Shown in pieces: positions 25,887 to 42,756 of a DNA stretch of 42,923 nt; position 1 is the stretch's first letter; each line of letters starts with the position of its first letter. Origin of the DNA: Flavobacterium sp. Its GTDB lineage: Bacteria > Bacteroidota > Bacteroidia > Flavobacteriales > Flavobacteriaceae. Made by a program: the position numbers and the translations under genes. The stretch lies in the NCBI RefSeq assembly GCF_017985075.1, contig NZ_JAGNYF010000016.1, forward strand, positions 1 to 42,923. Reading direction: 5' to 3'. The notes below the pieces were generated by a model. That model had not been told where the DNA came from, ran no database searches, and was given only the letters and a program-made list of their open reading frames with translations.

Positions 25887-25894
25887 ACACTAAC

Positions 25895-27379: not shown

Positions 27380-27403
27380 AAATATAAATAAAATAAAACA
27401 ATT

Positions 27404-27850
27404 ATGAAATTTAACTGGGGAACAGGCGTAATTATAGGATTTGGAAGCTTTATGACTTTTATACTTTTTTTTGTGTTTTTGGTGCAATCAAATTCAAAAT
27501 ATGATAATGAATTAGTAGCTGATGATTACTATAAACAAGAAAGTAAAGTGCAAAGTGATATTGAAAGTCAAAAGCTTTCAAACGCCTTAAAAACAAAATT
27601 GAAAGTAGTAAAAACTTCAGAAGGCATTCAAGTATATTTTCCTGAAGATATAGATTATAAAAAAATAAAAGGAACTATTTCCCTATACAGACCGTCAAAT
27701 CAAAAGTTGGATTTTGAAATGAAAATTTCTTTATCAAGTCCAATAATGCTCATACCTAATCATAAATTGATTGGCGGTCTTTGGGAAATATCTATAAATT
27801 GGAAAGTAGATGAGGTTCCTTATTTAAATAAGGAAACGGTTTATTTTTAA
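27404..27850 (+). CDS. ccoH: FixH/CcoH family cbb3 assembly protein
   Basis: A 148-residue protein with one N-terminal TM helix (about 7-27) and a periplasmic beta domain. The segment after the TM, SKYDNELVADDYYKQE, is the FixH family hallmark, and the C-terminal GGLWEISINWKVDEVPY is also typical. It interacts with the oxidase and CcoI during maturation. It lies 24 bp after ccoG and 24 bp before the SafE-like gene. Confidence 0.92.
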   Translation: MKFNWGTGVIIGFGSFMTFILFFVFLVQSNSKYDNELVADDYYKQESKVQSDIESQKLSNALKTKLKVVKTSEGIQVYFPEDIDYKKIKGTISLYRPSNQKLDFEMKISLSSPIMLIPNHKLIGGLWEISINWKVDEVPYLNKETVYF

Positions 27851-27874
27851 TTTACGATTTGAATTATAGAAAAA

Positions 27875-28576
27875 ATGCTTTATTCTGCGCTAATATTTGG
27901 GTTTATAAGTAGTTTGCACTGTGTTGGTATGTGTGGGCCAATTGCTATGATGCTCCCAATAGATCAAAATAATTCATTTAAAAAATGGAGCCAAATTGCT
28001 ACTTATCAACTGGGTAGAGTAGTGGCTTATGCTTCTTTAGGTTTGCTATTTGGTGTTTTAGGTTCTGGTTTTTTCTTTGCTGGATTTCAACAGCAATTAT
28101 CTATTTTAGTTGGCGTTTTAATGATTTTAATTGCCATTATTCCTGAAAACAAATTAGCACAGTATAATTTTTCAAAACCCATATACAAACTAATTTCTAC
28201 TGTTAAAACACAATTAGGACTACAATTTAAAAACAAAAGTTATAAATCGTTATTTCTAATTGGACTTTTTAATGGGTATTTACCTTGCGGAATGGTATAT
28301 GCTGCTCTGTTTGGGGCTATGGCTATGAATCACGTTTTTTTAGGAAGTTTGTATATGATTTTATTTGGATTAGGCACCATTCCTTTGATGACTGTAGTAG
28401 TTAATTTATTAAAAAGTACCTCGTTTGCTTTTTATACTAAAATTCAAAAAGCCATTCCGATAGTTATCATTTTTATTGGGATATTATTTATTGTAAGAGG
28501 TTTTGGTTTAAATATTCCATATGTTTCTCCTAGCTCAATGAATTTACATATTCAGTCAGAAGTAAATTGCCATTAA
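27875..28576 (+). CDS. Sulfite exporter TauE/SafE (UreH/DsbD_2-like) family membrane protein
   Basis: A 233-residue polytopic membrane protein, about six TM helices. Family landmarks are SSLHCVGMCGPIAMMLP near the N-terminus, YQLGRVVAYASLGLLFG, and NGYLPCGMVYAALFGAMA in the second half. The paired Cys-containing motifs resemble the DsbD/UreH transmembrane fold. This family is usually found as the last gene of cbb3 operons, where a role in copper or thiol handling during oxidase assembly has been suggested. It is the last gene of the operon here. Confidence 0.85.
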   Translation: MLYSALIFGFISSLHCVGMCGPIAMMLPIDQNNSFKKWSQIATYQLGRVVAYASLGLLFGVLGSGFFFAGFQQQLSILVGVLMILIAIIPENKLAQYNFSKPIYKLISTVKTQLGLQFKNKSYKSLFLIGLFNGYLPCGMVYAALFGAMAMNHVFLGSLYMILFGLGTIPLMTVVVNLLKSTSFAFYTKIQKAIPIVIIFIGILFIVRGFGLNIPYVSPSSMNLHIQSEVNCH

Positions 28577-28667
28577 ATTTTTGCCACCAAGCCATAATGT
28601 CAAGAAGTTGTTTTTTACACTCGGATTGAAATGATTTAGGATTACGTTTAGTTAGTAATATTTTTTT

Positions 28668-28700
28668 AGACCTGACAGGTTTCAAAAACCTGTCAGGTCT
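28668..28700. repeat. Perfect 15-bp palindrome between the cco operon and hemN
   Basis: AGACCTGACAGGTTT and AAACCTGTCAGGTCT are separated by CAA. It lies between convergent genes and may act as a bidirectional terminator, though the T-tract after it is weak (TTTAGTT). The core ACCTGTCAGGT resembles a palindrome I associate with dispersed copies in Bacteroidetes genomes. Confidence 0.75.
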
Positions 28701-28704
28701 TTAG

Positions 28705-30066
28705 TTAAACCGTCATTGAAAATAATTCTGTTTGTGGCACCGCTCTTTTTAATCTTAAATCGAAAGCCATACAAATATTTCTCACAAATGCTTTTCCTAA
28801 ATCAGTAACAATTAGTTTTTTATTTTCAATATAAAGTAATCCATCTAATTGCATTTCGTAAAGTGAATCCAAAACATCATAAATTTCTGTAAAATAAGTA
28901 GATTCATCGTTCCAATTCGTTTCAAAATGGCACATTAAGTTTAAAATATGTTGACGAATTACTACATCTTCAGAAGTTAAATGATGCCCTCTAAATACAG
29001 GTAAATTATTGCTATTAATTTTTTGATAATACGTTTCTAACGATTTTTCATTTTGTGCAAAACTATTCCAGCTATCACTAATTGATGACACACCTAAACC
29101 AATCATTAGTTCCGTTTTCGAAGCGGTGTATCCCATAAAATTTCGATGTAGTGTTTTGTTTTTAAATGCTAAATACATTTCATCAGTAGGCAGAGCAAAA
29201 TGATCCATACCGATTTCTATGTAACCCATTTCAAGTAGCATTTTCTTACCTAATTCATATAATTGTCTTTTTGTATCACTTTGAGGAATGTCTTCATCTT
29301 GAAATCCACGTTGACCGTTTCCTTTTAGCCAAGGCACGTGTGCGTAACTATAAAATGAAATCCTATCAGGCAAAAGCGATTTTGTTTTTAATATTGTGTC
29401 TTCAATATCCTGAAGTGTTTGAAAAGGTAATCCGTAAATTAAATCGTGACCTATAGAAGTATAACCTATTTCTTTCGCTAATAAAGTTACTTTTGATACA
29501 TTATGAAAAGATTGCACTCTATGAATTGCAACTTGAACTTTTGGGCTATAATCTTGTACGCCAAAACTGACTCTTCGGAAGCCTAAATTATATAAAGTTT
29601 GCAAATGTTCTTTTGTAGTATTGTTTGGATGTCCTTCAAAACTAAAAATGTAGTTTTCAGCTTTATTTGCTGTTTCAAAAATACCTTCAAGTAATAAAGT
29701 TAAATTTTCTGCAGAAAAAAAAGTTGGCGTTCCGCCTCCCAAATGAATTTCTTTAATATTCGGTTTTCTTGAAAATAAATTGCAGTACAAACGCCATTCT
29801 TTTATTACGGCTTGTATATAAGGCAATTCTACTTCGTGACGTTTAGTAATTCGTTTGTTACAACCACAAAAAGTACATAAACTTTCACAAAAAGGCAAAT
29901 GAATATATAAACTTATGCCTTCTATTTGGTTCGAAATTTTAAACGTTTCTGTTAGATTTTGAATCCATTTTTTTTCTGAAAACGCATCTTCTTCCCAAAA
30001 AGGAACTGTTGGATAACTGGTATATCTGGGACCAGGCACATTATATTTTTGTATCAATGACGACAT
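28705..30066 (-). CDS. hemN: Oxygen-independent coproporphyrinogen III oxidase
   Basis: A radical-SAM enzyme of haem synthesis, 453 residues, which decarboxylates coproporphyrinogen III without O2. N-terminal GPRYTSYPTVPFW; the radical-SAM cluster Cys60, Cys64, Cys67 (PFCESLCTFCGC), with Cys69 as in true HemN; GGGTPTFF; the GHDLIYGLPFQT segment; and the C-terminal HemN domain with YTASKTELMIGLGVSSIS. The Cys pattern favours genuine HemN over the HemW-type paralogue. An Fnr-type box precedes it, which fits induction under low oxygen together with the haem-containing cbb3 oxidase. Confidence 0.95.
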   Translation of the reverse strand: MSSLIQKYNVPGPRYTSYPTVPFWEEDAFSEKKWIQNLTETFKISNQIEGISLYIHLPFCESLCTFCGCNKRITKRHEVELPYIQAVIKEWRLYCNLFSRKPNIKEIHLGGGTPTFFSAENLTLLLEGIFETANKAENYIFSFEGHPNNTTKEHLQTLYNLGFRRVSFGVQDYSPKVQVAIHRVQSFHNVSKVTLLAKEIGYTSIGHDLIYGLPFQTLQDIEDTILKTKSLLPDRISFYSYAHVPWLKGNGQRGFQDEDIPQSDTKRQLYELGKKMLLEMGYIEIGMDHFALPTDEMYLAFKNKTLHRNFMGYTASKTELMIGLGVSSISDSWNSFAQNEKSLETYYQKINSNNLPVFRGHHLTSEDVVIRQHILNLMCHFETNWNDESTYFTEIYDVLDSLYEMQLDGLLYIENKKLIVTDLGKAFVRNICMAFDLRLKRAVPQTELFSMTV

Positions 30067-30084
30067 AACTTTATGAATTTATCA

Positions 30085-30129
30085 CAAAACTATGGGTATT
30101 CACGCTAAATATTTATGATAAATATCATA
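30085..30129 (-). promoter_or_regulatory. Fnr-type box and promoter of hemN
   Basis: TATGATAAATATCATA at 30114-30129 is identical to the ccoS box. On the minus strand TAGTTTTG (30085-30092) matches TAnnTTTG and ends 36.5 bp from the box centre, the same spacing as at ccoI and ccoS. Confidence 0.8.
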
Positions 30130-30177
30130 CGAAGAAAGTAATGTTAATTTGAAATAAAAATAGATTTAGAAATCCAA

Positions 30178-30993
30178 TTACGTGTAAGAACAAATTAATT
30201 CTTTAATTAATGTTCTAATTTGAGGTTCGGCATTTTTGGCTGCTTTCAAAACTTCTTCATGTGATACACTTTCCATATTTTCTTCATTTCCCATATCGGT
30301 AATAACAGAAATTCCAAACGTTTCCATATCCATATGACGTGCAACGATTACTTCAGGAACAGTGCTCATTCCTACGCAATCGCCACCAATATTTTTTATC
30401 ATTTTATATTCGGAAAGTGTTTCATAAGTTGGGCCTTGTAGTGCAACATATACACCTTCTTCTATCTCTATGTTTTTAATTCTTGCAATCTCTTTTACTT
30501 TTGCAATCATATGGTGGCTGTATGGCTCACTCATATTTACAAATCTTGGTCCTAACCGGTCATCGTTTATTCCTCGTAAAGGATGTTCAGGCATCATATT
30601 AATATGATTTGTAATTAAAACAATTGAGCCTACTTTATATTTTGAATTGACACCACCAGAAGCATTAGATACTATTAATTTAGAAACACCCAAATATTTC
30701 ATTACCCTAATGGGAAAAGTTACTTCCTTCATACTATGTCCTTCATAATAATGAAAACGGCCTTGCATTGCGATTACTTTCTTAGTTCCAATAGTTCCAA
30801 AAAGTAAAGCGCCTTTATGACCATCAACAGTAGATGTAGGGAAATTTGGTATTTCAGAATAAGGAATGGTAAATTCAATGGAAATATCTTCTGCAAAATC
30901 TCCTAAACCGGATCCTAAAACCACTCCGTATTCTGGTGTGAAATTTGTTTTTGCTTTTATGAATTCACACGTTTCGTAAATTTGATTTAACAT
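30178..30993 (-). CDS. punA: Purine-nucleoside phosphorylase
   Basis: A trimeric class I PNP, 271 residues, which cleaves purine nucleosides with phosphate to base and ribose 1-phosphate. Landmarks are GVVLGSGLGDFAE (phosphate loop), GRFHYYEGH, VSNASGGVN, ITNHINMMPEHPLRG, GPTYETLSEYKMIKNIGGD with the base-contacting Glu, VGMSTVPEVIVARH, and VITDMGNEE. In class I enzymes the residue at the last motif is usually Asn in purine-specific members (TDMxxxE here). A -7 element lies at 31015-31022. Confidence 0.95.
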   Translation of the reverse strand: MLNQIYETCEFIKAKTNFTPEYGVVLGSGLGDFAEDISIEFTIPYSEIPNFPTSTVDGHKGALLFGTIGTKKVIAMQGRFHYYEGHSMKEVTFPIRVMKYLGVSKLIVSNASGGVNSKYKVGSIVLITNHINMMPEHPLRGINDDRLGPRFVNMSEPYSHHMIAKVKEIARIKNIEIEEGVYVALQGPTYETLSEYKMIKNIGGDCVGMSTVPEVIVARHMDMETFGISVITDMGNEENMESVSHEEVLKAAKNAEPQIRTLIKELICSYT

Positions 30994-31115: not shown

Positions 31116-31244
31116 AAATGTTTTTGCCCCCAAATTGCATATTATAAAATCTCCCCAATTTTATAATAAAACAGAAACATTTATGCTAGATTTTTTCAGC
31201 ATAGTTTTGTTAAAAGACTTCAAGGATACTTGAAGTCTTTTTTT
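31116..31244 (+). ncRNA. Predicted structured small RNA
   Basis: About 129 nt with no credible coding frame. The outer stem is AAATGTTTTTG (31116-31126) with CAGAAACATTT (31172-31182), with one G-U pair. Inside is a 14-nt C-rich internal loop (CCCCCAAATTGCAT), then the perfect 10-bp stem ATTATAAAAT/ATTTTATAAT (31141-31150, 31158-31167) with the loop CTCCCCA. A second hairpin ATGCT/AGCAT lies at 31183-31202, and a strong terminator ends the element at 31213-31244. A TAnnTTTG element sits just upstream. Family unknown to me; Flavo-1 RNA or a short 6S-like RNA are names to test, not conclusions. The weak point is that the terminator may serve the minus-strand operon instead. Confidence 0.5.
31213..31244. 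terminator. Strong hairpin terminator, best oriented on the plus strand
   Basis: AAAGACTTCAAG and CTTGAAGTCTTT form a perfect 12-bp stem with loop GATA. Seven T follow on the plus strand, but only four on the minus strand. It can end the predicted small RNA and, less well, the minus-strand operon finishing at 31291. Confidence 0.8.
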
Positions 31245-31290: not shown

Positions 31291-32052
31291 TTAATTAAAT
31301 CCCAAATCATAACTAAATCCAAATAATATTTGTGAATCTGTGTTTTTTATTTCAATGTAAGGTGTAGAGTGAAAACGATATCTTATTGTGGTATATATTT
31401 TAAAATGCTCAAAATTATAACCTATTTTAGGTTCTAAATACATACGATAATCTTTAAAATCTTCCGAGTTGAGTTGGTAATAAAACACGGTATTGTTTTG
31501 TAATTTATCAGTAATTCTAAAGTTGAAAAAAGAACTAAAACTATATCTGTAATTTATAATATGTACTTCCTCGTTACTATTTTTTAAATACATTTCGTTT
31601 TCATAAAATGGACCAAAGGCAACATCTAAGTAGTTTTTATCTTTTCTATAAATATTTTTACGATATCCAATTCCAATTAAATACCGACTATTCAGCGATA
31701 AAGAAACTGCTTTTTGTCCTTGTACAAATGAATATAAAGAACTGTTTTTTAAGGAATAACTGTATCGTAATTGACTTGTGTAATCTGATGAAATTACCTC
31801 TTTGTCTTGTGAAATATATTCGTAATTAAAAAACAATCGAACTAAATTTTTATCTTTCTTAAACGCAAGTTGATTGGCAGAATTAAATTGTGTTAACTCA
31901 ATATTTCCAGTTGTATAATTTCCGTCAAAACTTGTTGTAAGTACAAAAGTACTATCTAATTTACTCGACATACTCTCAGTATTTACTATAGATTGTGCCT
32001 TAGCGAGAGATCCAAATAATATAAAACAAATGATTTGTATTTTATTTTTCAT
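31291..32052 (-). CDS. DUF481 outer-membrane beta-barrel protein
   Basis: A 253-residue exported protein. A signal peptide covers residues 1-19 (ending AKAQS). The mature part is a run of amphipathic beta strands with aromatic girdles (LVRLFFNYEYISQDKEV, SLYSFVQGQKAVSLSLNSRY, YLIGIGYRKNIYRKDKNYLD), ending FGFSYDLGFN with a terminal aromatic residue as in outer-membrane barrels. This matches DUF481, a family of salt- or stress-induced outer-membrane proteins. It is the last gene of a tight minus-strand set, 9 bp after the channel-like gene. Confidence 0.8.
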   Translation of the reverse strand: MKNKIQIICFILFGSLAKAQSIVNTESMSSKLDSTFVLTTSFDGNYTTGNIELTQFNSANQLAFKKDKNLVRLFFNYEYISQDKEVISSDYTSQLRYSYSLKNSSLYSFVQGQKAVSLSLNSRYLIGIGYRKNIYRKDKNYLDVAFGPFYENEMYLKNSNEEVHIINYRYSFSSFFNFRITDKLQNNTVFYYQLNSEDFKDYRMYLEPKIGYNFEHFKIYTTIRYRFHSTPYIEIKNTDSQILFGFSYDLGFN

Positions 32053-32061
32053 AACTAAATT

Positions 32062-33273
32062 TTAAATAGCATCATCTTTAAATATACTTGCAAAATCTGA
32101 AATATATTGATAGTATGCTGCATCGTTTGATTTTAATATTGAGACATTAACATGAAGCATTAGTAAGTCGTTTTTAGTTTTATTCTGAATAAAATTTGCT
32201 ATATGATTTTTTTCAGGTATACCAACAGTAGCATGTTTAGCTATTGATTTTTCGTATTTTTCAGAAATTAGTTTTGCTTTATTAAAGTATTGATTTAATT
32301 TTTCTATATCTGAAAAATAAATACCATTATCAAAACTAATATCACCTTTTTCGGCACCAATATTAAATTGCATTAAATACTCGTTATTACCTGCGTTTAC
32401 TAAAAATATGCAAATCCCATCATCCTCTTGCATAATTGTTGAAATATCCTTTTTAATTTCCTTTAAAGCTGTTTCCGAAACCAACTCTTCAAAGTAATTT
32501 TCATTATTAATCATATTAAGTCTGTGCTCTTCTAATAATGTAAATTGACCAAACTTCTCATTTGATATATAATTTGCTTGAAGTACATCGGAAATTGCAA
32601 GACCAAAATGACCAAAAAAAGGTTGCGTAAAAGGGTAAAGGTTTACTATTGTTAATTTAGAATTCCTGTTAATGCATTGGCCATAAGTTCTATTGAGATT
32701 TATGTATTCTAATCCAACAGTATTAATGCCATCTATATTTACATTAGTTATTTTAAACTTTTTTGAAAATTCACATACTTGTAAAACAGTACTCTCAGAT
32801 ATTCCCATTTTGTATTTAATGTCACTAATACTCAACCATTTTCTTGGTAAATGTGATACATTTAGTTCTCTTTTGATTTTTATTACAGGCGCTAAGTATT
32901 CTACAGTAAAAGCACTTTCTAATTTTGCTTCGAGAGCTGTTAATTTTTTTAATAACTTATCATTTTCTATTTCTTCAATAAAACCAGATGCAATAATACC
33001 GGCTGGAAGCGCAAACATTCCGACTCCAAGAATGGCAATTAATCCAGATAAAAATTTTCCTGCAGGAGTGATGGGGTTAATATCTTCACCTCCAGTAGAA
33101 GTTAGGTATTTATCGATTCCCCACCATAATGAAGTATAAAGATTTTCAAATGATTTAGGTTGTGCTTCGTGTTCTAAAAAATACATTAGTACTGATGCAA
33201 TGATAATTAAAACCAGAATCATTCCCAATGATACTGTTAATTCAGTTTTCTTGTTTTTAATTGCTTTTATCAT
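32062..33273 (-). CDS. K+-channel-like membrane protein with aberrant selectivity filter
   Basis: A 403-residue protein with a two-TM pore module: TM1 about 14-33, pore helix 42-58 (FENLYTSLWWGIDKYL), filter region 59-70, TM2 73-99 (LSGLIAILGVGMFALPAGII). The overall pattern is that of Ion_trans_2 voltage-independent channels, including the GMFALPAGIIASGF gate helix. The filter, however, reads STGGEDINPITP where the family has TVGYGDxxPxT, so the GYG triplet is replaced by GGE. A Lys/Glu-rich helix (103-122) follows, then a cytoplasmic domain of about 250 residues that I do not recognise. Overlap-free but tight (9 and 17 bp gaps) in its operon. It may conduct something other than K+, or be a gated non-selective pore. 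Confidence 0.72.
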   Translation of the reverse strand: MIKAIKNKKTELTVSLGMILVLIIIASVLMYFLEHEAQPKSFENLYTSLWWGIDKYLTSTGGEDINPITPAGKFLSGLIAILGVGMFALPAGIIASGFIEEIENDKLLKKLTALEAKLESAFTVEYLAPVIKIKRELNVSHLPRKWLSISDIKYKMGISESTVLQVCEFSKKFKITNVNIDGINTVGLEYINLNRTYGQCINRNSKLTIVNLYPFTQPFFGHFGLAISDVLQANYISNEKFGQFTLLEEHRLNMINNENYFEELVSETALKEIKKDISTIMQEDDGICIFLVNAGNNEYLMQFNIGAEKGDISFDNGIYFSDIEKLNQYFNKAKLISEKYEKSIAKHATVGIPEKNHIANFIQNKTKNDLLMLHVNVSILKSNDAAYYQYISDFASIFKDDAI

Positions 33274-33290
33274 AAAATAAATTCCAGGTG

Positions 33291-34022
33291 TTATAAGTTG
33301 TATCTTATAGGATTTGCTGCCCCTTTTTTCTTTAGATGCGCAATTGATTTATTTAAATAGAGGTCTTTTATTTCTCTTGGAGCGTCTTCTCCATTAAACC
33401 CCCATCTTCTATTTATTTTATTATTTTCTGTTGCAGCGGCATACCAATTGTTGATTTTAAAAACGCCTATAATTATACCTTGAAATTCAGATAATGCATA
33501 TTCTAATTCATTAATTCGATTTTTATTAATTACCCAAGATTCTTTAGTAGCTGCGTAAATGGCATTGTTTGAGTTTTTTACTTTTGCATATTGTCTGTTA
33601 ATATTAATAATCACAACATTATGTAATAAATTTTCAAGTTTTGGTGCATTATATTGTCTAATTAATTCATCAGTAGTTTTAATACCATAAAAACCACTAT
33701 TATGACCAGACACTTCGTTTGTTAATTTATTTAAATTAAAATTATGATAATCAATTAAAGTAGCTTCAACTAAAAACGCTTCTTTTTCTGTAAGTCCGTG
33801 ACGTATAATTAAATGTTGGATATCCAATTTTTTGTCTAAAATTTCTTTAATTTCAGTTTTTTTCAACGAATTAATTTCACTTTTATTTTCAAGAACTTCT
33901 TGCTTATGGGCAAATACTCTATTGTCAATTCCTTTACCGATATAAAAGACTTTATTTGTTAATGGATTTACTAAAGCATAGACGTAAAAGCCTAATTTAG
34001 TTACGGTTAAATTATCAAACAT
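33291..34022 (-). CDS. GIY-YIG nuclease domain protein (LEM-3-like)
   Basis: A 243-residue cytosolic protein. Residues 10-110 form a GIY-YIG domain of the LEM-3/COG3680 type: YVYALVNP (13-20), FYIGKG (26-31), Arg35 and His39 (NRVFAHKQ), and catalytic-type Glu86 (EAFLVEATLID). All key positions are filled, so nuclease activity is plausible. Residues 130-243 form a second domain with IYAATKESWVINKNR, a GVFKINNWY segment and RRWGFNGEDA, ending NPIRYN. I have seen this second pattern fused to such nucleases and suspect a PUA/EVE-like nucleic-acid-binding fold, but that is inference. It is encoded between the KAP NTPase and channel-like genes. Confidence 0.75.
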   Translation of the reverse strand: MFDNLTVTKLGFYVYALVNPLTNKVFYIGKGIDNRVFAHKQEVLENKSEINSLKKTEIKEILDKKLDIQHLIIRHGLTEKEAFLVEATLIDYHNFNLNKLTNEVSGHNSGFYGIKTTDELIRQYNAPKLENLLHNVVIININRQYAKVKNSNNAIYAATKESWVINKNRINELEYALSEFQGIIIGVFKINNWYAAATENNKINRRWGFNGEDAPREIKDLYLNKSIAHLKKKGAANPIRYNL

Positions 34023-34066
34023 ACTTAATTGATTTCGTTAGTGTTTTTTAAATATTTTTTCTCTTA

Positions 34067-35857
34067 TTACTTATAATTTAAGGATAAGAAGTCTTTAAAT
34101 TCAGTAGGATTTAATTCTTTTGAAACTTTAAATACTTTTTGATTTCCATTGTCTTTTTCTAAGCTTAAACCCTTAGGATAAGATGTGTTTGATAAATTAA
34201 ACAATTCAATTGATATTAATTCTGTTTGTTTTGGCGGATTATTAAGCTTAGCAAACACATTACTATTTTCAAATTTAATGTAACTGCCTAAAATTGTAAA
34301 TTTTCCAGCAGTTGAATTGGTAATTGCCAATAATGTTTCGAAAACAATTTGATATGTTTTTAATTTTATTTCAAGCCCCTCTTTTTTAGCCCCGTTTGCA
34401 ATTAATTCTTGTTTTATGATGTCAATTTTTGTTTTTATATCAGAAAAAATAGTTTTGTTACCTCTTTTTTCAACCACACCTTTCATGTTTACATCGTCAT
34501 CAACATTCGTAATTGAAGCAAATTTTAATGCCATTACTGTTTTTTCATCTAATACTTCGGGTCTATTTTCGAATTTATTTCTCAAGAAATTAAACAATTC
34601 CAAGATGTTAAAAACTTTAGATTTTAAATACACATCATTTTGGCAAGCACCATATATAATTTGTTCCCAATCTTCATCTAATTTATCATTATCACCATAT
34701 TTTTGAATATCCAGTTTAACGCCGTCTAAATTGATATTATTTTTATTAGCAAAACCTTTATCCCAATCATAAATATCAGGCATTTGAGTAATTAATCTAA
34801 AAATTTTAGGATATGATATTTGCACCCCAATCATTGCAAATAATATCAAATCATCTTCAGAGTCTGGAGGGTTGTCTCCAAAATCGGATGCATCATTTTC
34901 AAAATCAGAGTTTCTTAGATTTCTTAACAATGAAAATGAATTAATATATCTTTTTAAACTTCTTGGATTAAATCCAATAGTATATTTTACAACATTTGTA
35001 TATGAATCATTAAGTTCTTCTGGAATTCCGATAGATAAGGAACTTAATTTTTCAGACAGTAAATTACCCATATCATAAGTCCCTGTTGGCATCGAAAACG
35101 GAACTTGAATGATTTTATCAAAAAAGGAACGAAATTCGCGTTCATTTTCTTCGGTTTTTTTACCAAATTTCGATTCTAAACCTTTTACAACTACATCATA
35201 ATCAATTGCCAATACAAATACACAATTTGGTACGTCAAATAAGTTTTTTAAACTTTCTAATACTTCTACAGCTTGATCTGGTGGGATACGATCTAAATCA
35301 TCAACAAGGAAAACTACTTTTTTATAATCATTATTTGGATCCTCTATTAAATTTGCAATAATAATTTCAATTTCTTTTTTTATCTCAGCAATTTCGGCTT
35401 GCTCTCTATTGGCTTCTTCTCGAACAATAGCACCTTTTATATCTACACCTGTTTGATTTGCTATTACTTGATTTGCTACGTTTCCAAAAAATGAAAAAAC
35501 TTTTTTCATACCCGCCTCAGTCTTCTTTTCAATAGTCCAATTTTCTCCACAACTCAACTTTAAATTGGTAAGCATACCTTTTAAAATGGCAGGCGTAGTT
35601 TCAGCCGGATTTCTAAACATACTATATTCCCAAGTGTTTACCCAAGAAGTTGCTATGTTTTCACGTTTAAAATGCTCTAAAAGCATATAAAGCATTGACG
35701 TTTTTCCGGTACCCCATTCGCCTTGTAGACCAACAGTTAAAGGCGTATCGCCTTGTTTGATGAAATTTGATAAAACAGCACTGTAACGCGACATTTTTAA
35801 TTTATCCTCATCATTTTTTTCGATAGGTTTGTCAGTAATACAAGATTTTAAATCCAT
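34067..35857 (-). CDS. KAP family P-loop NTPase
   Basis: A 596-residue STAND-related ATPase of the KAP family. Walker A is GEWGTGKTS (46-54, Lys52). Walker B is VVFLVDDLDRIPPDQAVEVL (181-200) with Asp186/187/189. An Arg finger or sensor Arg lies in IGFNPRSLKRYINSF. A Glu/Lys-rich coiled segment (142-165) sits between the motifs where many KAP proteins carry TM helices; none are seen here, so this one looks cytosolic. The C-terminal 250 residues are unknown. KAP ATPases occur in membrane-associated and phage-defence or conflict-related contexts. It is followed 44 bp later by the GIY-YIG nuclease gene. Confidence 0.85.
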   Translation of the reverse strand: MDLKSCITDKPIEKNDEDKLKMSRYSAVLSNFIKQGDTPLTVGLQGEWGTGKTSMLYMLLEHFKRENIATSWVNTWEYSMFRNPAETTPAILKGMLTNLKLSCGENWTIEKKTEAGMKKVFSFFGNVANQVIANQTGVDIKGAIVREEANREQAEIAEIKKEIEIIIANLIEDPNNDYKKVVFLVDDLDRIPPDQAVEVLESLKNLFDVPNCVFVLAIDYDVVVKGLESKFGKKTEENEREFRSFFDKIIQVPFSMPTGTYDMGNLLSEKLSSLSIGIPEELNDSYTNVVKYTIGFNPRSLKRYINSFSLLRNLRNSDFENDASDFGDNPPDSEDDLILFAMIGVQISYPKIFRLITQMPDIYDWDKGFANKNNINLDGVKLDIQKYGDNDKLDEDWEQIIYGACQNDVYLKSKVFNILELFNFLRNKFENRPEVLDEKTVMALKFASITNVDDDVNMKGVVEKRGNKTIFSDIKTKIDIIKQELIANGAKKEGLEIKLKTYQIVFETLLAITNSTAGKFTILGSYIKFENSNVFAKLNNPPKQTELISIELFNLSNTSYPKGLSLEKDNGNQKVFKVSKELNPTEFKDFLSLNYK

Positions 35858-35918
35858 AGGGTATAAAATTTATTTTTATATAATTAGTCTTAGATATTTT
35901 CTCATTCAAGAGTTAGTT

Positions 35919-37043
35919 TTATTTTTGTAAACGATATCTGATTTCATAATGAAATGTTTTCTCGTAAAGCGCTACAACATCTAACCAAGCATAAGTATCA
36001 GAGAAGGAACTTGTAGATTGAAGACCAATGTAAGAAAAGCCCGAATAAGGTTTTTTTACCAGTCCAACCCGACTTTGTGTAGAAAATGCACTATTATTAA
36101 TATCGTATTTAAATGCACTTGCATATTGCTTTCCAGGATATTGTAAAAATTTCTTTATTTCTTTTTGTTTATCAAAAAAGAACACATTTAACGTATAATC
36201 TTCGTCTTTTTTTGGTGGGAAAAGCGAATTAAGTATTTCACGACTTAAACTGGTGCTTTTTTCTTCTGATTCCCAAAGCGGTAATCCAAAAACTTTTACC
36301 TTTTTGGAGATTCTATTTACGTCGTTAAATAACCTTCCGTCTTCTCTTTGAGTTTCGTCTTCACCTGATATTCTTAGGGTGTATATAAATTCAACCGTAT
36401 TTTTAGGAATTTCTATGGGTACATATACTTTGCTTTCACCAGACATAGAAAAAGTACTTGATACGATAAATTTCTTAGGTTGGTTAAATACTTTTTCAAA
36501 TGCCATTGTAGTTCCAATTTTACTTTTATTGGTTTTTTTACCTACAACAACAGAGTCGCGAATTAATTTCGCCTTACTTAAGTAATTATCTACACTTCCA
36601 GATTTTCTTGAAACTTCTAAATTATAGTAGGATTCTTTTGGAAAGTAAATTTTAACAGAAAACGGATTATCAAAGAACACATCGTAAGTAAAATCAACAT
36701 CAGATGTTTTTTTAAATGTTTTTACGATTCGTCCACTGCGTTGCTCTACGATTGAAAAAAACTTTACTTGATTGTCAGAATTAAATTTAATTTGAATCGT
36801 ATCTTTACTTAAACCAAAAAAATCTTTTACAATAAAACTATCAGCTGTAGCCAATTCACCTTGATCTGAAATAACATTTTCGAATTTTAAATCTTCTAAA
36901 GTGATTTTTTTTGTAACTTCTACGGTTTCTTTTTCTTCTTTATTATTCGTTTTTGTAGTTGCATTTTCATCGTTTTTTTTACTACATGAAATCAGCAATA
37001 AAGCAGCAATTATAATGATAATATTTTTTTTAGTCCCAATCAT
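35919..37043 (-). CDS. Hypothetical lipoprotein, first gene of the KAP operon
   Basis: A 374-residue protein I do not recognise. Lipoprotein signal with lipobox LLISC and Cys20, then a Lys/Glu/Thr/Asn-rich linker (about 22-50), then a beta-rich extracytoplasmic region (residues 55-374) with segments such as FKYDINNSAFSTQSRVGLV. The C-terminus ends FHYEIRYRLQK, as in secreted beta-sandwich proteins. It lies 61 bp upstream of the KAP gene on the same strand and 81 bp from the divergent gene at 37125. Probably anchored in a membrane facing the periplasm or outside. Confidence 0.65.
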   Translation of the reverse strand: MIGTKKNIIIIIAALLLISCSKKNDENATTKTNNKEEKETVEVTKKITLEDLKFENVISDQGELATADSFIVKDFFGLSKDTIQIKFNSDNQVKFFSIVEQRSGRIVKTFKKTSDVDFTYDVFFDNPFSVKIYFPKESYYNLEVSRKSGSVDNYLSKAKLIRDSVVVGKKTNKSKIGTTMAFEKVFNQPKKFIVSSTFSMSGESKVYVPIEIPKNTVEFIYTLRISGEDETQREDGRLFNDVNRISKKVKVFGLPLWESEEKSTSLSREILNSLFPPKKDEDYTLNVFFFDKQKEIKKFLQYPGKQYASAFKYDINNSAFSTQSRVGLVKKPYSGFSYIGLQSTSSFSDTYAWLDVVALYEKTFHYEIRYRLQK

Positions 37044-37124: not shown

Positions 37125-38405
37125 ATGTATAACGATTATTCTCAATTACTGATTGATGTTCAAAAAAAATCCAATATTACGGTTACTACCATTAGAGATG
37201 TAAAGTATTTAAAGGAAGAATTAGATGCGGTTATAAACAAACCACTTGGTTTTAATACATTAAGAAGATTGTTTGGTTTTTTAGATAGAACCGTTCCTTC
37301 GCTTGCGACTTTAAATACGTTATCAATTTATCTTGGTTTTTCATCGTTTTCTAGTTATAAAAACAATCAATCCAATTATAGTGAATGGTATTTTCAACAG
37401 AGTTTATTGCGTATGCAGAAGCTAAAAATAATTGGGGAAGAAGAAATCAATAAAATCAATATTGGATTGTTAGACGAAAAAAATATTGTATTTCTAGCGT
37501 ATTTTTTATCATTTCAAATTGAAAAAAATAATATAGAAATTCTAAATGCTGTTTTTAAATATGTTGATTTTAAACAAGTGACAGGTACACAATTTCATAA
37601 ATTCTCTACTACCATTTCATTGAGTTTGTTAAATATACCAGAGAAAAAATCATTATCTATCTATGAAGCACTAATTCATTATGATACTTTTAGAAATAAT
37701 ATTCCATTACTTTTTATAGACTATACAAATTTAAATTCAAGGTATTATAAAATTCTTAGCATTATTGAAAAAAACGCAGCAAATGAATCAGATATTTTCT
37801 TTGTTTCATTAATGCGATTTTATAAGAATTATTATTCTGAAATAGAGTCTTTTTTAGATTATGAATTGAAAAAACCAACAGATTTTTCTAGTTTTCATTC
37901 CGTATTAAAAGGAAGGTTTTATGGATATTGCATTTTACAATCGCAAAAAGTAAGTCCGAAATTAAAAAAAGAAATTTTTGATGAATGCAGTTTCAATCGA
38001 GTAAGTTTTTTCTTAGAAGAAATCATTCCAGCTTTAATTATTAAAGAGGAATATGATATTCTAAAAGAAATTATGGATAAACATTACGAGGAATTATTTG
38101 AGTCCGATATTTGGTCATCTACCACAACTAGTGCAATTTATTTAATTGGATTATCAAATAGTAATTGGTATGCAGCTTCATATGCAAGGGCAAAAAGAAA
38201 CTTAGAATTAGTAGATTTGGAATTGGTTGAAATTGGCTATTATGACTACTTATCTTTGTTTTACTATTATACCAAATTAAAAATTAGTTTTTCAGAAAAA
38301 GCAATTGAAACAAATCATAATGCCTTAAAAAACATAAAACTTCATGTTAAGAAAACAGGATTTAAATTATTTCTTTCATTAGTCAAAGGATTTAGTTTGA
38401 GATAA
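37125..38405 (+). CDS. Hypothetical protein with N-terminal HTH-like module (paralogue 1)
   Basis: A 426-residue cytosolic protein, no signal or TM. Residues 25-78 hold a helical module (ELDAVINKPLGFNTLRRLFG then TLNTLSIYLGFSSFSSY) that also occurs in the next gene's product and resembles a small HTH in other Bacteroidetes proteins that I recall only by pattern. The remaining 340 residues are helical, rich in Leu, Tyr and Phe, with a spacing that suggests TPR- or HEAT-like repeats. Possible regulator whose C-terminal part senses or binds a partner. Divergent from the KAP operon. Confidence 0.55.
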   Translation: MYNDYSQLLIDVQKKSNITVTTIRDVKYLKEELDAVINKPLGFNTLRRLFGFLDRTVPSLATLNTLSIYLGFSSFSSYKNNQSNYSEWYFQQSLLRMQKLKIIGEEEINKINIGLLDEKNIVFLAYFLSFQIEKNNIEILNAVFKYVDFKQVTGTQFHKFSTTISLSLLNIPEKKSLSIYEALIHYDTFRNNIPLLFIDYTNLNSRYYKILSIIEKNAANESDIFFVSLMRFYKNYYSEIESFLDYELKKPTDFSSFHSVLKGRFYGYCILQSQKVSPKLKKEIFDECSFNRVSFFLEEIIPALIIKEEYDILKEIMDKHYEELFESDIWSSTTTSAIYLIGLSNSNWYAASYARAKRNLELVDLELVEIGYYDYLSLFYYYTKLKISFSEKAIETNHNALKNIKLHVKKTGFKLFLSLVKGFSLR

Positions 38406-38476: not shown

Positions 38477-39508
38477 ATGTATTACGATAAGATTTTGCTA
38501 GATAAAATATTTAACAAAACAGGTATCTATATCACTAATAAAAACGAGTGTAAATTATTAAGTCAGATTATTGCTAGTGAGAAAAAAGGATACTTATCGG
38601 AATCTACTTTATATCGTTTTTTTCTTAGTCCAAATGGTAAACATAAGCCATATAAAAATACGTTAAATATATTGGCTCAATTCTGCGGATATGCTTCTTG
38701 GGATAACTTTGTGAATTATTGTGATAGTGTGCATTTATTTACGGATGCTAATTTCTTAAACAAGACCTTCGATACAATTATTACTGATTTTGTAAATCAA
38801 GAGAAATTTAACTCTTTAATTGATGTTTTTGATAGTGTGTCACACGAAAATTATAAAACTAAAGAATATTTAGGACTTCGGGCTTTTATATCATTTCAAA
38901 AAAACACATCGTTTTCAACTTTTGTTAAAAAATATGGGCAGCATGATTTTGTAAGAAATATTCTTTTAGAAGCTTTATACGATCCTTTTCACCGAATTCT
39001 AGGCTATACAGATAGTTTTCAGTATTATTTAGATTTAACAAATCCAAATGATACTAATTATTTGCAAGATTATATTTTTGCGAATGCAGTTTTGTTTCGT
39101 TATTTTTATTTTAATGATATTCTAAAAGCTAAAGAAATCGGAAGAAAACTTTATGATTTTCCCATTAGCTCCATTGAATTTGATGCGATTTATATATTTC
39201 CAAAAGCTAGATATGTAGCATATAAAATGTGGTATTTGCATCTAAACGAAGCTAAGAAAAATACTTTAATAGATTATTTAGATGAAGTTTGTTATTTTAT
39301 TGAAAATGAATTTAATAAATCCAATTTAATTATTGAGATAAATATAGTTTATGAAACCTTTATTGAAGTTGTTCAACAACTTAATTTAGTGCAACTAGAA
39401 CAGAAGATTAATACACTTTATGACACAAAAATTAAATCGCTAAATATTAATAACTTAGCATTAGTTAGAACTTTACATTCAAATGGTTTATTAAATATAT
39501 TAAATTAA
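38477..39508 (+). CDS. Hypothetical protein with N-terminal HTH-like module (paralogue 2)
   Basis: A 343-residue cytosolic protein. Residues 23-80 carry the same module as the upstream gene: KLLSQIIASEKKGYLSESTL, YRFF, then TLNILAQFCGYASWDNF. The C-terminal 260 residues are helical with many aromatic residues and a general resemblance to the paralogue but low identity. Preceded by a tandem AACTTGAACT repeat. Its stop overlaps the start of the EamA gene by one base (TAATG), so the two are co-translated. Function unknown; a sensor-regulator is my best guess. Confidence 0.55.
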   Translation: MYYDKILLDKIFNKTGIYITNKNECKLLSQIIASEKKGYLSESTLYRFFLSPNGKHKPYKNTLNILAQFCGYASWDNFVNYCDSVHLFTDANFLNKTFDTIITDFVNQEKFNSLIDVFDSVSHENYKTKEYLGLRAFISFQKNTSFSTFVKKYGQHDFVRNILLEALYDPFHRILGYTDSFQYYLDLTNPNDTNYLQDYIFANAVLFRYFYFNDILKAKEIGRKLYDFPISSIEFDAIYIFPKARYVAYKMWYLHLNEAKKNTLIDYLDEVCYFIENEFNKSNLIIEINIVYETFIEVVQQLNLVQLEQKINTLYDTKIKSLNINNLALVRTLHSNGLLNILN

Positions 39509-40359
39509 TGTTGTACATATTACTATCCATATTTTTATTTTCATTTAATAATGTTTTGTGGAAAAAAAACTTAGAAAAACTACCAGTTTCATTTTTGGTT
39601 GCATACCGTGCTTTTTTTACAAGTACTATTGCATTAAGTCTTTTTTTTTATTTTCATAGCGAAACAATTGTAAGTCATCATTTGATTTTACGAATTACAA
39701 CCGGCTCTATTTTTGGTGTAATTGGGTTGTTTTCTATGCTTTCTGTAATCCAAAAAGCGTCGTTACAATGGTTGGGTATTTATAATTTATTGGGTATTGT
39801 TTTTACTTCCCTGTATTTATGGTTTTTTGAGAAAGTTGTGTTTACGCAATCTATTTTTGGATTGATTTTAATACTTATGGGTTTTATTTTTTATATATAC
39901 TCCAATAAAGAAACTCAGATAAAAATCACAATAAAACAACATGCCTTATTGCTTTTAATGACAATAAGTTTTTCAATATCTTCATTAGTACATTGGAAAA
40001 ATTTAAAAAGTGACATTCCGCCATTATTAATTATTTCCAATCAGGAGATAGTTGTTTTTATTACCGCTTTTGTCTTAACGATATTTAAGTTTAAAACAAT
40101 AAAAATTAAAGAAGTTTGTAAAAATTATTTTTTAAGAGTCATACTAATGGCGTTTATTATTTTTCTAGCCTTACTTTTTAGTTTTTTAGGATTGAAAATT
40201 ACGAATCCTGTTGTTTCAAGTGTCTTGTTTTTGGCTAGTCCGTTAACTACTATTTTATTATCTACGTTGATATTTCGTGAGCAACTTACGCTTAAAAACG
40301 GAATGGCAATTTTAATCATTGCTACAGGCGCATTTATTTTACATTATTATTCTGTTTAG
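39508..40359 (+). CDS. EamA/DMT superfamily transporter
   Basis: A 283-residue inner-membrane protein with ten predicted TM helices arranged as two EamA repeats (residues 1-130 and 140-283), the classical drug/metabolite transporter layout. Landmarks are FLVAYRAFFTSTIALSLF, GVIGLFSMLSVIQKASLQ, and in the second repeat NPVVSSVLFLASPLTTILLS followed by FREQLTLKNGMAILIIATG. Substrate unknown. The start overlaps the stop of paralogue 2, which suggests a joint function, for example export of a compound whose level that protein senses. Confidence 0.85.
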   Translation: MLYILLSIFLFSFNNVLWKKNLEKLPVSFLVAYRAFFTSTIALSLFFYFHSETIVSHHLILRITTGSIFGVIGLFSMLSVIQKASLQWLGIYNLLGIVFTSLYLWFFEKVVFTQSIFGLILILMGFIFYIYSNKETQIKITIKQHALLLLMTISFSISSLVHWKNLKSDIPPLLIISNQEIVVFITAFVLTIFKFKTIKIKEVCKNYFLRVILMAFIIFLALLFSFLGLKITNPVVSSVLFLASPLTTILLSTLIFREQLTLKNGMAILIIATGAFILHYYSV

Positions 40360-40861: not shown

Positions 40862-42070
40862 ATGATTCAATTAAACACAGTCTATTCAATAGATAATGGA
40901 GTAAATTCGGTAATATTTACTGAAGGTAATAAAGGAAGCATCACTGGAACTCATAATGATGGTACGATGACTGGTTTTCAGGAAGGAAATGTATTTAAAG
41001 GAACATTTCACAATACGAAAGTGAATGCATCTGGTTTGATTGAAATTACTTTTCATGAAAGTGGTTTTGAAGCCAAATGGAAAAATGGAATGGAACCAGG
41101 ACCTATGCGTGGGAAATGGGTTGGTGAAATAGAAAACACATCCGATACTGATCAAAAATCAAATTCAAATGAGCAGGATGTTGTAGAAATCACCTTAAGT
41201 GGAAGAATTCCAAAGTACTTTTTTGGATTGTTAAAAGCTGATTTTAGGGATGAAGTAAAGTCAATCATTGAAATGTCTATTCCTGGACTATCAAATGAAC
41301 AAACATTATTGACTGCAATTTTAAAAACAACTTTAGAGGATTATGAAGATGATCGAGCGTATTTGGAGGAGTTATTGAAACGTGATGAAATTGTAGAGCA
41401 GTGTCCAAACCTAGTTGCACTCTATCAAGAGATTGAAGAATATAACTTAGATCATTTCGGCTTGTATGAAGCTCTTTTCGATACGGCTGACTATTGGCCT
41501 GGTGGAACAGGATTTGTTAGTTTCTTTGAAGACGATTGTAAGATTTCGATTTCTGTTAATGGAGAGATTGCTTTGAAAGAAATTTCTTTAGGTGAATTCT
41601 CGAAAATAAGTTCAGGGTATCATACTGAAAATGGACCTGAAAATGAAACAGAAAAAAGTATTGATAAACTATTAAAAGATTTTATTGCTACTAATATACA
41701 TGATTTTGGGTTATCAGAAGATATGGGAGTAAACTGCAATAAATTAGGCGTAATGTTTGCATTAGAATGGTTTGTACCTCCTGTATTAGAAGATGTTTGC
41801 GATAGAAAATATAATGTAACCATTCAACATGACGACATTATTGATTATACTTTTTATTTTGAAACTGTGAATTTTGATTTCAAAAAGTTATTGTTTCTGA
41901 CATATGCGAACTATGCTGATTTTCGAAATAATTCTTCAACAACCTTTGCAAATTATATTTTTTACGATAACGAAATTGTCACACCAGATGAAACATGGCA
42001 TCGCGACAAAGGAATTGAACTAGAATATGAACCTAGAGGGACAAGTCTGGATTTTTTAATTAACGGATAA
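40862..42070 (+). CDS. Hypothetical acidic protein (402 aa)
   Basis: A 402-residue cytosolic protein with no signal, TM or catalytic motif that I can name. Residues 8-90 form Gly-rich beta repeats (GSITGTHNDGTMTG, GFEAKWKNGMEPGPMRGKW), a pattern I have seen in other bacterial hypothetical proteins. A linker rich in Ser, Asn and Gln (92-106) is followed by a strongly acidic domain (110-402) with YWPGGTGFVSFFEDDCKISI and many Asp/Glu, Phe and Tyr residues. It sits in the middle of a three-gene cassette, 3 bp after the 63-aa gene and 11 bp before the glycosylase-like gene. It may be an adaptor or inhibitor. Confidence 0.55.
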   Translation: MIQLNTVYSIDNGVNSVIFTEGNKGSITGTHNDGTMTGFQEGNVFKGTFHNTKVNASGLIEITFHESGFEAKWKNGMEPGPMRGKWVGEIENTSDTDQKSNSNEQDVVEITLSGRIPKYFFGLLKADFRDEVKSIIEMSIPGLSNEQTLLTAILKTTLEDYEDDRAYLEELLKRDEIVEQCPNLVALYQEIEEYNLDHFGLYEALFDTADYWPGGTGFVSFFEDDCKISISVNGEIALKEISLGEFSKISSGYHTENGPENETEKSIDKLLKDFIATNIHDFGLSEDMGVNCNKLGVMFALEWFVPPVLEDVCDRKYNVTIQHDDIIDYTFYFETVNFDFKKLLFLTYANYADFRNNSSTTFANYIFYDNEIVTPDETWHRDKGIELEYEPRGTSLDFLING

Positions 42071-42081: not shown

Positions 42082-42756
42082 ATGAGTAATTTACAAATTG
42101 AAGAATTATATAAAAAAAGATATAATTTTCAAGACTTTTACGAAATAGCTACTACTTTAATCAATCAAAATAAATTGTTTAGTAATGGAAGTAATCAAAG
42201 CGTTCAAAAGGAAAAAATTGAATGTCAAAATGGTGATGTTCGAGTTGATTTACCGATAAGTTTTGGTTCGGAAAAGGCAACGTATCGATTGGCTATTTTA
42301 GGATTAGAACCAAGAGATTCCAATTCAAAATACAATATAAACCGTTCTGGTAAGTTTGTTTTTGGCACTCCATTTGGAATAGAATATTGGACAGAGAAAA
42401 ATAAATATTATAGATGTTTCGAATCATTATTTCAAAGACAAGATTGTTATCTATATTTTACAGATGTTGTAAAAGAATATGAAGTAAAAGATTCCAAAGG
42501 TGCTGCGGATATTAATGCCAGAAAAACATTTTGGACAAAAGCAGCGCTAGAGGATAATATTGCCTTCTTAAAATCGGAATTTGATATTATTAAACCAACT
42601 CATATTTTAGCACTGGGTATTGATACTCACGCTTTTTTAAAGCTGCATTTTGGAGATAAACTAGTACAAGTTATTCATCCAAACGCAAGACAAAATCAAG
42701 AATCAAAATTAAACGCTTGGGAAATTGCTAAAAAGCAATTGAATGATATTTTTTAA
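42082..42756 (+). CDS. Uracil-DNA glycosylase superfamily-like protein
   Basis: A 224-residue cytosolic protein with the motif order of the UDG fold: a motif A-like LAILGLEPRDSN (70-81), then FVFGTPFGIEYW (92-103), YLYFTDVVKEY (123-133), a strand-plus-loop THILALGIDTHAFL (173-186), and the motif B-like VIHPNAR (197-203) near the C-terminus. The usual catalytic Asp or Asn of motif A is not clear; Glu76 or Asp79 could stand in. So the fold is probable but the activity, base excision or otherwise, is not. Last gene of the cassette, followed by a terminator shared with tmRNA. Confidence 0.55.
   Translation: MSNLQIEELYKKRYNFQDFYEIATTLINQNKLFSNGSNQSVQKEKIECQNGDVRVDLPISFGSEKATYRLAILGLEPRDSNSKYNINRSGKFVFGTPFGIEYWTEKNKYYRCFESLFQRQDCYLYFTDVVKEYEVKDSKGAADINARKTFWTKAALEDNIAFLKSEFDIIKPTHILALGIDTHAFLKLHFGDKLVQVIHPNARQNQESKLNAWEIAKKQLNDIF

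Follow-up and report, generated by a model that had tools for sequence, protein, structure and literature searches.

Comparison with described defence systems

The roles of KAP-family NTPases in defence are poorly understood. Tmn is a KAP-family NTPase with two transmembrane domains and anti-phage activity, and QatA, likewise a KAP-family NTPase, is a component of QatABCD; the available portions of the papers on both leave the mechanism open. PD-T4-3/CMoRE is an experimentally tested anti-phage family of GIY-YIG type IV restriction endonucleases, which the available portions of its description present as single-component, with one gene being sufficient and the cell not being killed. Most of its members, but not all, are described there as carrying a negatively charged inhibitory loop. 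Cleavage of DNA containing 5hmC or 5ghmC is a further characteristic of the family. Here, we analysed a stretch of 42,923 nucleotides from a Flavobacterium sp. (referred to as the window), in which an operon encodes relatives of both kinds of protein. As a first-pass annotation had described, all five open reading frames lie on one strand with short gaps between them:

31291-37043, minus strand: operon of five genes, with gaps of 61, 44, 17 and 9 bp
35919..37043, minus strand: LIPO, a predicted lipoprotein of 374 aa
34067..35857, minus strand: KAP, a KAP-family P-loop NTPase of 596 aa
33291..34022, minus strand: GIY, a GIY-YIG nuclease of 243 aa, full-length homologue of PD-T4-3/CMoRE
32062..33273, minus strand: CHAN, a protein of 403 aa with a two-TM pore (S5-P-S6) and a tail domain of ~300 aa
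31291..32052, minus strand: DUF481, a predicted outer-membrane barrel of 253 aa, last gene of the operon

The KAP protein belongs to the KAP NTPases by its domain (PF07693, KAP_NTPase, E 2.1e-36 in Pfam) as well as by a Walker A motif (GEWGTGKTS) at residue 46 and a Walker B-like motif (VVFLVDDLDR) at residue 181. Its top PADLOC matches, the candidate system PDC-S20 (6.2e-33) and PifA (1.9e-27), are limited to the NTPase half of the protein (residues 16-248 and 5-274 of 596, respectively), and QatA is matched as well (1.4e-23). While the operon resembles QatABCD in combining a KAP domain with a nuclease, and QatA models match part of the window KAP, the protein reaches 85 bits compared to the QatA equivalog cut-off of 600, and no QueC or TatD family was found by Pfam among the operon genes; an assignment to QatABCD was therefore rejected. 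Tmn shares the KAP family with the window protein but differs in having two transmembrane segments within the NTPase, whereas in the window the membrane component is encoded by a channel gene of its own and no segment of KAP exceeds the threshold of 1.6 (narrowly, with a maximum of 1.59 in a simple hydropathy scan that is not a topology predictor). On this basis, KAP was not assigned to Tmn, and it is probably a soluble NTPase. A second KAP-like match in the genome (L002), a P-loop protein of 206 aa, was put aside upon inspection by eye.

A full-length homologue of PD-T4-3/CMoRE

The GIY protein matches the LEM-3-like GIY-YIG family of Pfam (E 2.7e-15) and the PADLOC model for PD-T4-3 (E 2.8e-52), and residues 6-242 of its 243 residues align to residues 15-259 of PDB entry 9U75, the CMoRE structure (E 3e-37), so that the homology extends over both the nuclease and the C-terminal sensing domain. 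The protein has a GIYxY-YIG motif together with the catalytic residues R and E (GFYVY at 11, FYIGKG at 26, DNRVFAH at 33 and VEATLID at 85), with F in place of I at the second motif position, and both catalytic residues are kept in 10 of 10 aligned rows, 9 of which are distinct. The search of defence databases that the first-pass annotation had proposed thus identified the nuclease as PD-T4-3, and its view that the parts are like those of a conflict system gained a full-length member of a tested anti-phage family. The window protein differs from CMoRE in two respects: upon inspection of the alignments by eye, four consecutive acidic residues were not seen at the place of the inhibitory loop, and its gene shares an operon with those for KAP, the channel and the envelope proteins, whereas CMoRE is described as single-component.

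A predicted pore protein with an altered filter

33073..33102, minus strand: codons for residues 58-67 of CHAN (TSTGGEDINP), the altered filter region, compared with homologues

In CHAN, the Ion_trans family of Pfam covers residues 14-101 only (E 7.8e-7), and hydropathy indicates two membrane segments (8-37 and 71-100). The S5-pore-S6 region aligns with the voltage-gated potassium channels KCNQ and Mll3241 (E about 1e-12), but the voltage sensor is missing, a tail of ~300 aa is added, and STGGE is found where the potassium channels have TVGYG. Among 7 tail-bearing relatives with a voltage-gated-type pore, 6 have an IG[DE]xGG[YF] filter. A plain potassium channel was rejected, as both the window protein and these relatives have a changed filter. 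The earlier description of CHAN as channel-like therefore holds for the pore, but the protein has neither a voltage sensor nor a potassium signature. For the tail, which is conserved over 300 residues in this family that lacks the potassium filter, PDB matches did not improve on E 0.36, and weak Cas2-like matches in Pfam and PADLOC were not believed. These results point to a family of ion channels with a changed selectivity filter, of which we found no described member in the literature or the PDB.

The 7 tail-bearing homologues have about 120-160 additional residues at the N-terminus, the expected place of S1-S4, whereas the window protein begins at the S4-S5 linker, its gene following GIY directly. 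This is what would be expected if the window channel had lost its voltage sensor and the whole set were a remnant of recombination. Such decay is very improbable, however, as all five frames are open with their motif residues kept, a two-TM-like version with the tail also occurs at another locus (L123), and KAP shares 81% identity with its closest full-length relatives.

Predicted envelope proteins

The N-terminus of LIPO (MIGTKKNIIIIIAALLLISC) was judged by eye to have a lipobox-like end, and hydropathy indicates one N-terminal hydrophobic segment. No Pfam family above cut-off and no PDB relative worth naming was found for this protein, the family alignment of which comprises 9 rows. The DUF481 protein matches PF04338 (E 3.6e-15, 57 bits compared to a cut-off of 21.1) and has one N-terminal, signal-like hydrophobic segment by hydropathy, which places it among the DUF481 outer-membrane proteins.

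Partner genes recur beside related KAP genes

Homologues of one or more of the four partners were found by profile at 30 of 83 distinct KAP loci compared to 0 of 40 control stretches (Fisher p 9e-7), the profiles having been built from the same KAP loci and the controls not being matched for defence islands. DUF481 was found at 13 of the 83 loci, the channel tail at 9 (including L051, which had been fetched via a channel search), GIY at 9 and LIPO at 7. When the profiles were replaced by tblastn searches with the proteins of the window, the counts at 87 loci were 9 for the channel (including the ordinary TVGYGD potassium channel without the tail at L075, which was left out of the channel-tail family), 9 for GIY, 7 for LIPO and 3 for DUF481; the six window genes at coordinates below those of the operon were found at 0-1 of the 87 loci, and every query gave 0 of 40 in the controls. 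This recurrence of the other partners beside KAP genes and their absence from control stretches likewise agree with the proposed likeness to a conflict system.

None of the 83 other KAP loci contains the full set of five, the maximum being two of the four partners together (8 loci), while 53 loci had none of the four. The five-gene set of the first-pass annotation needs revising in that it is no fixed system but one selection from a pool of partner genes that are shuffled between loci. Its question of whether the homologues are found together has a divided answer: the exact set does not recur and GIY and DUF481 also occur without KAP, but LIPO and the channel tail are nearly absent from the samples of the phylum, and their few carriers have them mostly beside this KAP.

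It is conceivable that the genes share a defence island merely as independent tenants: recombination would have stacked a stand-alone PD-T4-3 nuclease, a KAP system and others there, adjacency reflecting a shared address rather than a shared mechanism. The tested PD-T4-3/CMoRE acts alone according to the available description, and relatives of GIY occur elsewhere without KAP (in 5 of 197 other genomes), as does DUF481 (40 of 117). KAP was not seen in the short flanks of six GIY loci from this genome sample, and four plasmid-borne GIY relatives have no annotated KAP within 6-8 kb; 3 of the 4, upon inspection, adjoin restriction-modification genes. Moreover, partner combinations differ between loci, and L055 and L056 have mostly different neighbours despite KAPs of 81% identity.

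However, LIPO and the channel tail cluster with this KAP despite being very rare in the samples of the phylum. LIPO was found in 0 of 295 other phylum genomes, whereas all 8 matches in 50 KAP-bearing genomes, the selection of which included known LIPO carriers, lie within 10 kb of KAP; a LIPO relative on a Chryseobacterium plasmid has no KAP in the 16.6 kb covered. The channel tail was found in 1 of 394 other genomes, with that copy 1.2 kb from KAP. In KAP genomes, 7 of 15 tail matches are on contigs other than that of KAP: two are apparent broken-off ends of KAP-locus copies, one adjoins further pool genes, one is truncated where the contig ends, for one the only such gene is of UP type (see below) and about 5 kb away, and two have no pool gene in the stretch covered. 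Neither LIPO nor the tail matched a model of known defence genes in PADLOC, save for the weak Cas2-like match. In addition, KAP-DUF481 and KAP-GIY pairs overlap or nearly so: KAP and DUF481 overlap by 1 bp on the same strand in L055 and L056, and same-strand gaps are 5, 39 and -50 bp for GIY-KAP and 12 bp for LIPO-KAP. Finally, the Bacteroidales loci L087, L088 and L090 share most gene families in shuffled order. We thus regard independent tenancy as weakened and rather unlikely.

A second alternative is a system for envelope or ion stress that is not primarily defensive, in which KAP would energise an assembly of lipoprotein, barrel and cation channel, with the nuclease being incidental. While membrane association or use of ATP is suggested for four of the five products, and the pool also contains TerB, DUF4230, OmpA-like/OmpA-domain proteins, a Phenol_MetA-type barrel and a pyroglutamyl peptidase, this reading appears improbable in light of the nucleases: GIY-, PvuRts1I- or GmrSD-cluster nucleases were found at 22 of 83 loci. 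Against it stand also the 94 PADLOC families matched by 140 sampled KAP neighbours compared to 14 matched by 140 control ORFs, and the patchy distribution (8 of 326 genomes of the order at E 1e-20, including the window's own genome). PvuRts1I-like nucleases were found in 3 of 50 KAP genomes, all beside KAP, compared to 1 of 148 phylum genomes. At one locus, nucleases from two of the three clusters are present; since this is not clearly below chance, mutual exclusion is not claimed. Scans of viral contigs with the channel and KAP alignments confirmed no phage-borne copies.

The sequence itself shows the operon, the identity of each part and the recurrence of these parts alongside related KAP genes. 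Because the same kinds of partners adjoin related KAPs elsewhere, we consider the operon one member of a mix-and-match cluster, and slightly favour the reading that this modular, KAP-centred cluster is functionally linked and serves defence. Its role would probably be directed against phages.

Divergent genes and extent of the cluster

37125..38405, plus strand: UP1, 426 aa, divergent from the operon across an 81-bp gap
38477..39508, plus strand: UP2, 343 aa, clusters with UP1-like proteins

By tblastn, homologues of UP1 were found at 9 of 87 KAP loci and those of UP2 at 5 of 87, compared to 0 of 40 controls each. Since UP1 homologues recur beside KAP elsewhere, the feature probably reaches past 31291-37043 and takes in UP1. 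No Pfam family was found for UP1, and its designation as a regulator is therefore a guess.

A possible mode of action

The following steps are given in order of decreasing confidence. KAP would be the constant part, acting as a switch or scaffold that is driven by ATP and regulated by the divergent gene. GIY, by analogy with its tested relatives, would cut incoming DNA with hypermodified cytosine and would be one of several exchangeable nucleases. More doubtfully, and with rather low probability, the pore without a potassium filter may leak ions and de-energise the membrane once its tail domain or KAP signals infection, and would thereby be a second line that stops the cell. Through the lipoprotein and barrel, part of the system may be located in the envelope, where it would detect or prevent the entry of phages or restrain the pore, although we consider this distinctly unlikely. 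It is also unlikely, if somewhat less so, that all parts constitute a previously undescribed, envelope-spanning and mix-and-match immune machine, in which a KAP hub joins exchangeable cytoplasmic nucleases acting on DNA with modified cytosine to a non-potassium channel, a lipoprotein and an outer-membrane barrel, and in which a single complex, on detecting a phage with modified DNA, would both cut DNA and de-energise the membrane.

In a literature search covering few subscription journals, we found no paper that pairs KAP with ion channels or PD-T4-3, and none on DUF481 in phage defence or on selectivity-filter channels in anti-phage work. A KAP clade that travels with modification-dependent nucleases, an odd channel family and envelope proteins offers concrete partners to test. 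Furthermore, PD-T4-3/CMoRE, single-component in the available description, would sometimes be part of a larger set.

Gene spacing and transcription signals

Three runs of five same-strand genes with gaps of ≤61 bp are present in the window, including the operon. Because the two further runs are as tight, such spacing is ordinary by itself and was dropped as a sign of a system. A Bacteroidota-type promoter pattern had no match in the divergent gap (37043/37125) and showed no excess across the whole window (8 matches compared to 5.6 expected). Downstream of the operon, the sequence contains a hairpin that is a possible terminator, with a T-run that is short on the operon strand and longer on the other:

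31216-31237, downstream of the operon: hairpin, possible terminator

A tightly spaced gene cluster around a KAP NTPase

The first-pass annotation's placement of five one-strand genes at 31291–37043 with gaps of 61, 44, 17 and 9 bp (9, 17, 44 and 61 bp along the minus strand in coordinate order, from the DUF481 to the lipoprotein gene) agrees with the ORF coordinates:

31291–32052, minus strand, ORF: DUF481 barrel
32062–33273, minus strand, ORF: channel
33291–34022, minus strand, ORF: GIY-YIG nuclease
34067–35857, minus strand, ORF: KAP NTPase
35919–37043, minus strand, ORF: lipoprotein

Since the window, this cluster included, has three five-gene runs of such tightness, and is the complete contig C18 of a 2.28 Mb draft genome, this spacing is ordinary, and the case therefore depends on the neighbours of related KAP genes at other loci.

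The KAP protein matches PF07693 (E 2.1e-36); its best PADLOC models are PDC-S20, PifA and QatA, with matches confined to the NTPase half, and its profile found no relative in the PDB at E 0.01. Among the matches listed, the closest full-length KAPs, both at 81%, come from L055 ('Flavobacteria bacterium BAL38') and L056 (a Bacteroidetes MAG); a partial copy in L078, a Flavobacteriaceae MAG, reaches 85% over 256 residues.

Neighbourhoods of related KAP genes

An alignment of four KAPs, used for a pattern scan across 84,980 genomes, yielded at least 593 stretches and at least 248 relatives, the best 80 of which were used. Together with seven loci from earlier searches this made 87 loci, or 83 after removal of the near-duplicates L065, L067, L074 and L081; certain pairs among the 83 still have DNA stretches in common, and L051, picked up by the channel search, favours the channel in the counts. 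The controls were 40 stretches (564 kb) taken from contig 1 of 40 of the same genomes, and their main weakness is that they are not matched for defence islands.

By profile, DUF481 was found at 13, the channel tail at 9, the GIY nuclease at 9 and the lipoprotein at 7 of the 83 KAP loci (best-80 set plus seven), and each of the four at 0 of the 40 controls, unmatched for defence islands. Co-occurrence of the proposed set was thus borne out in part: at least one partner is present at 30/83 KAP loci compared to 0/40 controls, but 53/83 have none of the four. Two partners occur jointly at 8/83 (L045, L062, L085, L087, L088, L090, L098 and L111).

Because the profiles derive from the very KAP loci being counted, tblastn with the window's own proteins is the fairer test. 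At the 87 loci, it recovered the channel at 9 (8 without L075), the GIY nuclease at 9, the lipoprotein at 7 and DUF481 at only 3, so that the higher DUF481 count depends on the profile; DUF481 was confirmed by Pfam at L055, with blastp matches at L044, L045 and L046. On the plus-strand side, the divergent genes UP1 (37125–38405) and UP2 (38477–39508) matched at 9 and 5 loci, the gene at 40862 at 3, the EamA-type gene at 1 and the gene at 42082–42756 at none. The six genes on the low-coordinate side (24957–30993), whose names (ccoP, ccoG, FixH etc.) were assigned by eye, phosphorylase excepted, matched at 0, 0, 0, 0, 1 and 0 loci. Every query gave 0 in the 40 controls, again unmatched for defence islands.

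Several partners are closely coupled with KAP. In L055 and L056, the DUF481 and KAP genes have 1 bp in common, and in L064, L070, L077 and L132 they are 21–75 bp apart on the same strand; the GIY/KAP distance is -50 bp in L082, 5 bp in L045 and 39 bp in L127 (44 bp in the window), and a gap of 12 bp separates lipoprotein from KAP in L104. At L087, L120 and L122, a barrel of another family (Phenol_MetA_deg; one member Pfam-checked) follows KAP by 18–49 bp, which suggests that a barrel in general, not DUF481 specifically, is needed. The Bacteroidales loci L087, L088 and L090 all have KAP, lipoprotein, channel (extending past the contig edge in L088) and barrel, and share a pyroglutamyl peptidase, a PD-(D/E)XK protein and small proteins of cluster c1, in shuffled gene order. 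The identities of the parts and their recurrence near KAP are established. KAP is likely to be functionally linked with the lipoprotein and the channel, moderately likely with the barrel, and may or may not be linked with the GIY nuclease.

Channel and lipoprotein families

Channel residues 1–105 correspond to S5-pore-S6 of the voltage-gated superfamily, which leaves no space for S1–S4, followed by a tail of ~300 residues. All seven homologues with similar pore and tail (L051, L062, L087, L090, L098, L111 and L120) have a substituted potassium filter, IG[DE]xGG[YF] in six and TGSTPQG in L051; the window's channel has STGGE at this position. The pore may form a cation leak. The best PDB match of the tail had E 0.36. 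In L123, the tail is preceded by a different membrane part, and in L099 (10461–11660) it follows what reads as a helix-turn-helix-like N-terminus, the pore being absent, which suggests that it may be a mobile sensor or signalling domain.

With one query sequence, the tail was found in 2/395 genomes, the window's own and G350, where it lies 1.2 kb from KAP. A search of 50 KAP genomes, also used for the lipoprotein below, with the tail alignment gave 15 matches spread over 13 genomes; eight lie at KAP loci of the fetched set and seven on other contigs. Among the latter, two (G698 C55, G716 C22) resemble broken-off ends of KAP-locus copies, one (G708 C24) adjoins c1 and UP-type genes, one (G695 C36) is truncated by the contig end and one (G716 C127) has a UP-type gene ~5 kb off; around G676 C29 and G717 C21, genes recurring at KAP loci were absent from the fetched stretch. 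A pyroglutamyl-peptidase-type gene (c16; two members Pfam-checked) occurs at L087, L088, L090, L098 and L111, all with the channel, which it adjoins at 4 of the five.

The lipoprotein forms a separate family, aligned with eight relatives. Of 296 phylum genomes, its profile matched the window's own and no other, and in the 50 genomes selected from those behind the 80 loci it gave 8 matches, seven at known sites within 10 kb of KAP and one more in G716, where the closer of two KAPs is 9.5 kb away. Because these 50 genomes were chosen to include every locus already known for lipoprotein or channel, the rate for either is biased, whereas the locations are informative.

The nuclease and a proposed link to defence

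GIY residues 2–242 match PD-T4-3 in PADLOC (2.8e-52), and the PDB matches are 9u75 (E 3e-37) and 9u7u (E 7e-33), both CMoRE structures. The CMoRE paper describes a single-component protein that cleaves 5hmC and 5ghmC DNA and, with no abortive infection, protects E. coli against T-even phages; the window's homologue instead lies within a five-gene operon. A second paper reports PD-T4-3 to be active in a native host. The resemblance to defence parts seen in the first-pass annotation holds, the nuclease being a member of an experimentally tested anti-phage family. The five-gene combination was not found described in the literature searched, which covered few subscription journals.

PD-T4-3 occurs in 6/198 and DUF481 in 41/118 phylum genomes, the window's own counted, and both are thus general-purpose genes. 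PvuRts1I-like nucleases (c15) are present at 5/83 KAP loci. PF21598, their type, matched 1/148 in the phylum sample; its three matches in 50 KAP-bearing genomes each adjoin KAP and are the c15 members L059, L085 and L105. As PvuRts1I likewise recognises 5hmC and 5ghmC, two unrelated nuclease families of the same recorded specificity, which their members at the KAP loci may or may not retain, adjoin this KAP. GmrSD-type proteins (c13; one member Pfam-checked by name) were found at 9/83 loci by profile. At E 1e-10, a sample of 140 of the 475 eligible KAP neighbours (named set genes excluded) matched 94 PADLOC families, compared to 14 for a sample of 140 of the 339 control ORFs, these being counts of families, not of distinct proteins. 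Defence is the most economical purpose of the cluster.

Other genes at or near KAP loci

Downstream of UP2, an EamA-type transporter gene (39508–40359, plus strand) follows immediately; EamA homologues likewise neighbour the UP1 homologue of L060 and, as a weak match, that of L063. The first ~90 residues of the protein encoded at 40862–42070 (plus strand) recur at L061, L098 and L132 (tblastn), and the gene after it (42082–42756, plus strand) scores 25.2 bits for the uracil-DNA-glycosylase superfamily (cut-off 24.3). In L098 (8883–9983), the 40862-type N-terminal domain is fused to a UDG-like domain (21.8 bits, under the cut-off), and the fusion gene stops 8 bp ahead of KAP. The island may extend beyond the contig end at 42923.

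The c1 small-protein family (74 ORFs, e.g., L090:2008–2388), frequently in several copies per locus, was found at 34/83 KAP loci and 2/40 controls; the member tested had no Pfam match, and an OmpA domain is present in one member of greater length. DUF2779-type proteins (c4, e.g., L046:10882–12876; one member checked by name) occur at 18/83 KAP loci; at six of them, the gene shares the strand of KAP at a distance of 20–73 bp. The Butyrivibrio plasmid NC_014390 (L053) encodes a more distantly related KAP, followed after ~600 bp by an AAA ATPase and McrC, which make up a further restriction set that depends on modification. At L050, KAP adjoins genes reading like a vWA protein, a PP2C phosphatase and a kinase, reminiscent of the TerY-P triad. 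Finally, G163 carries KAP with a 604-aa protein (GmrSD-type in L047) in two apparently identical copies, L047 and L048, one of them set among repeats of a 263-aa ORF.
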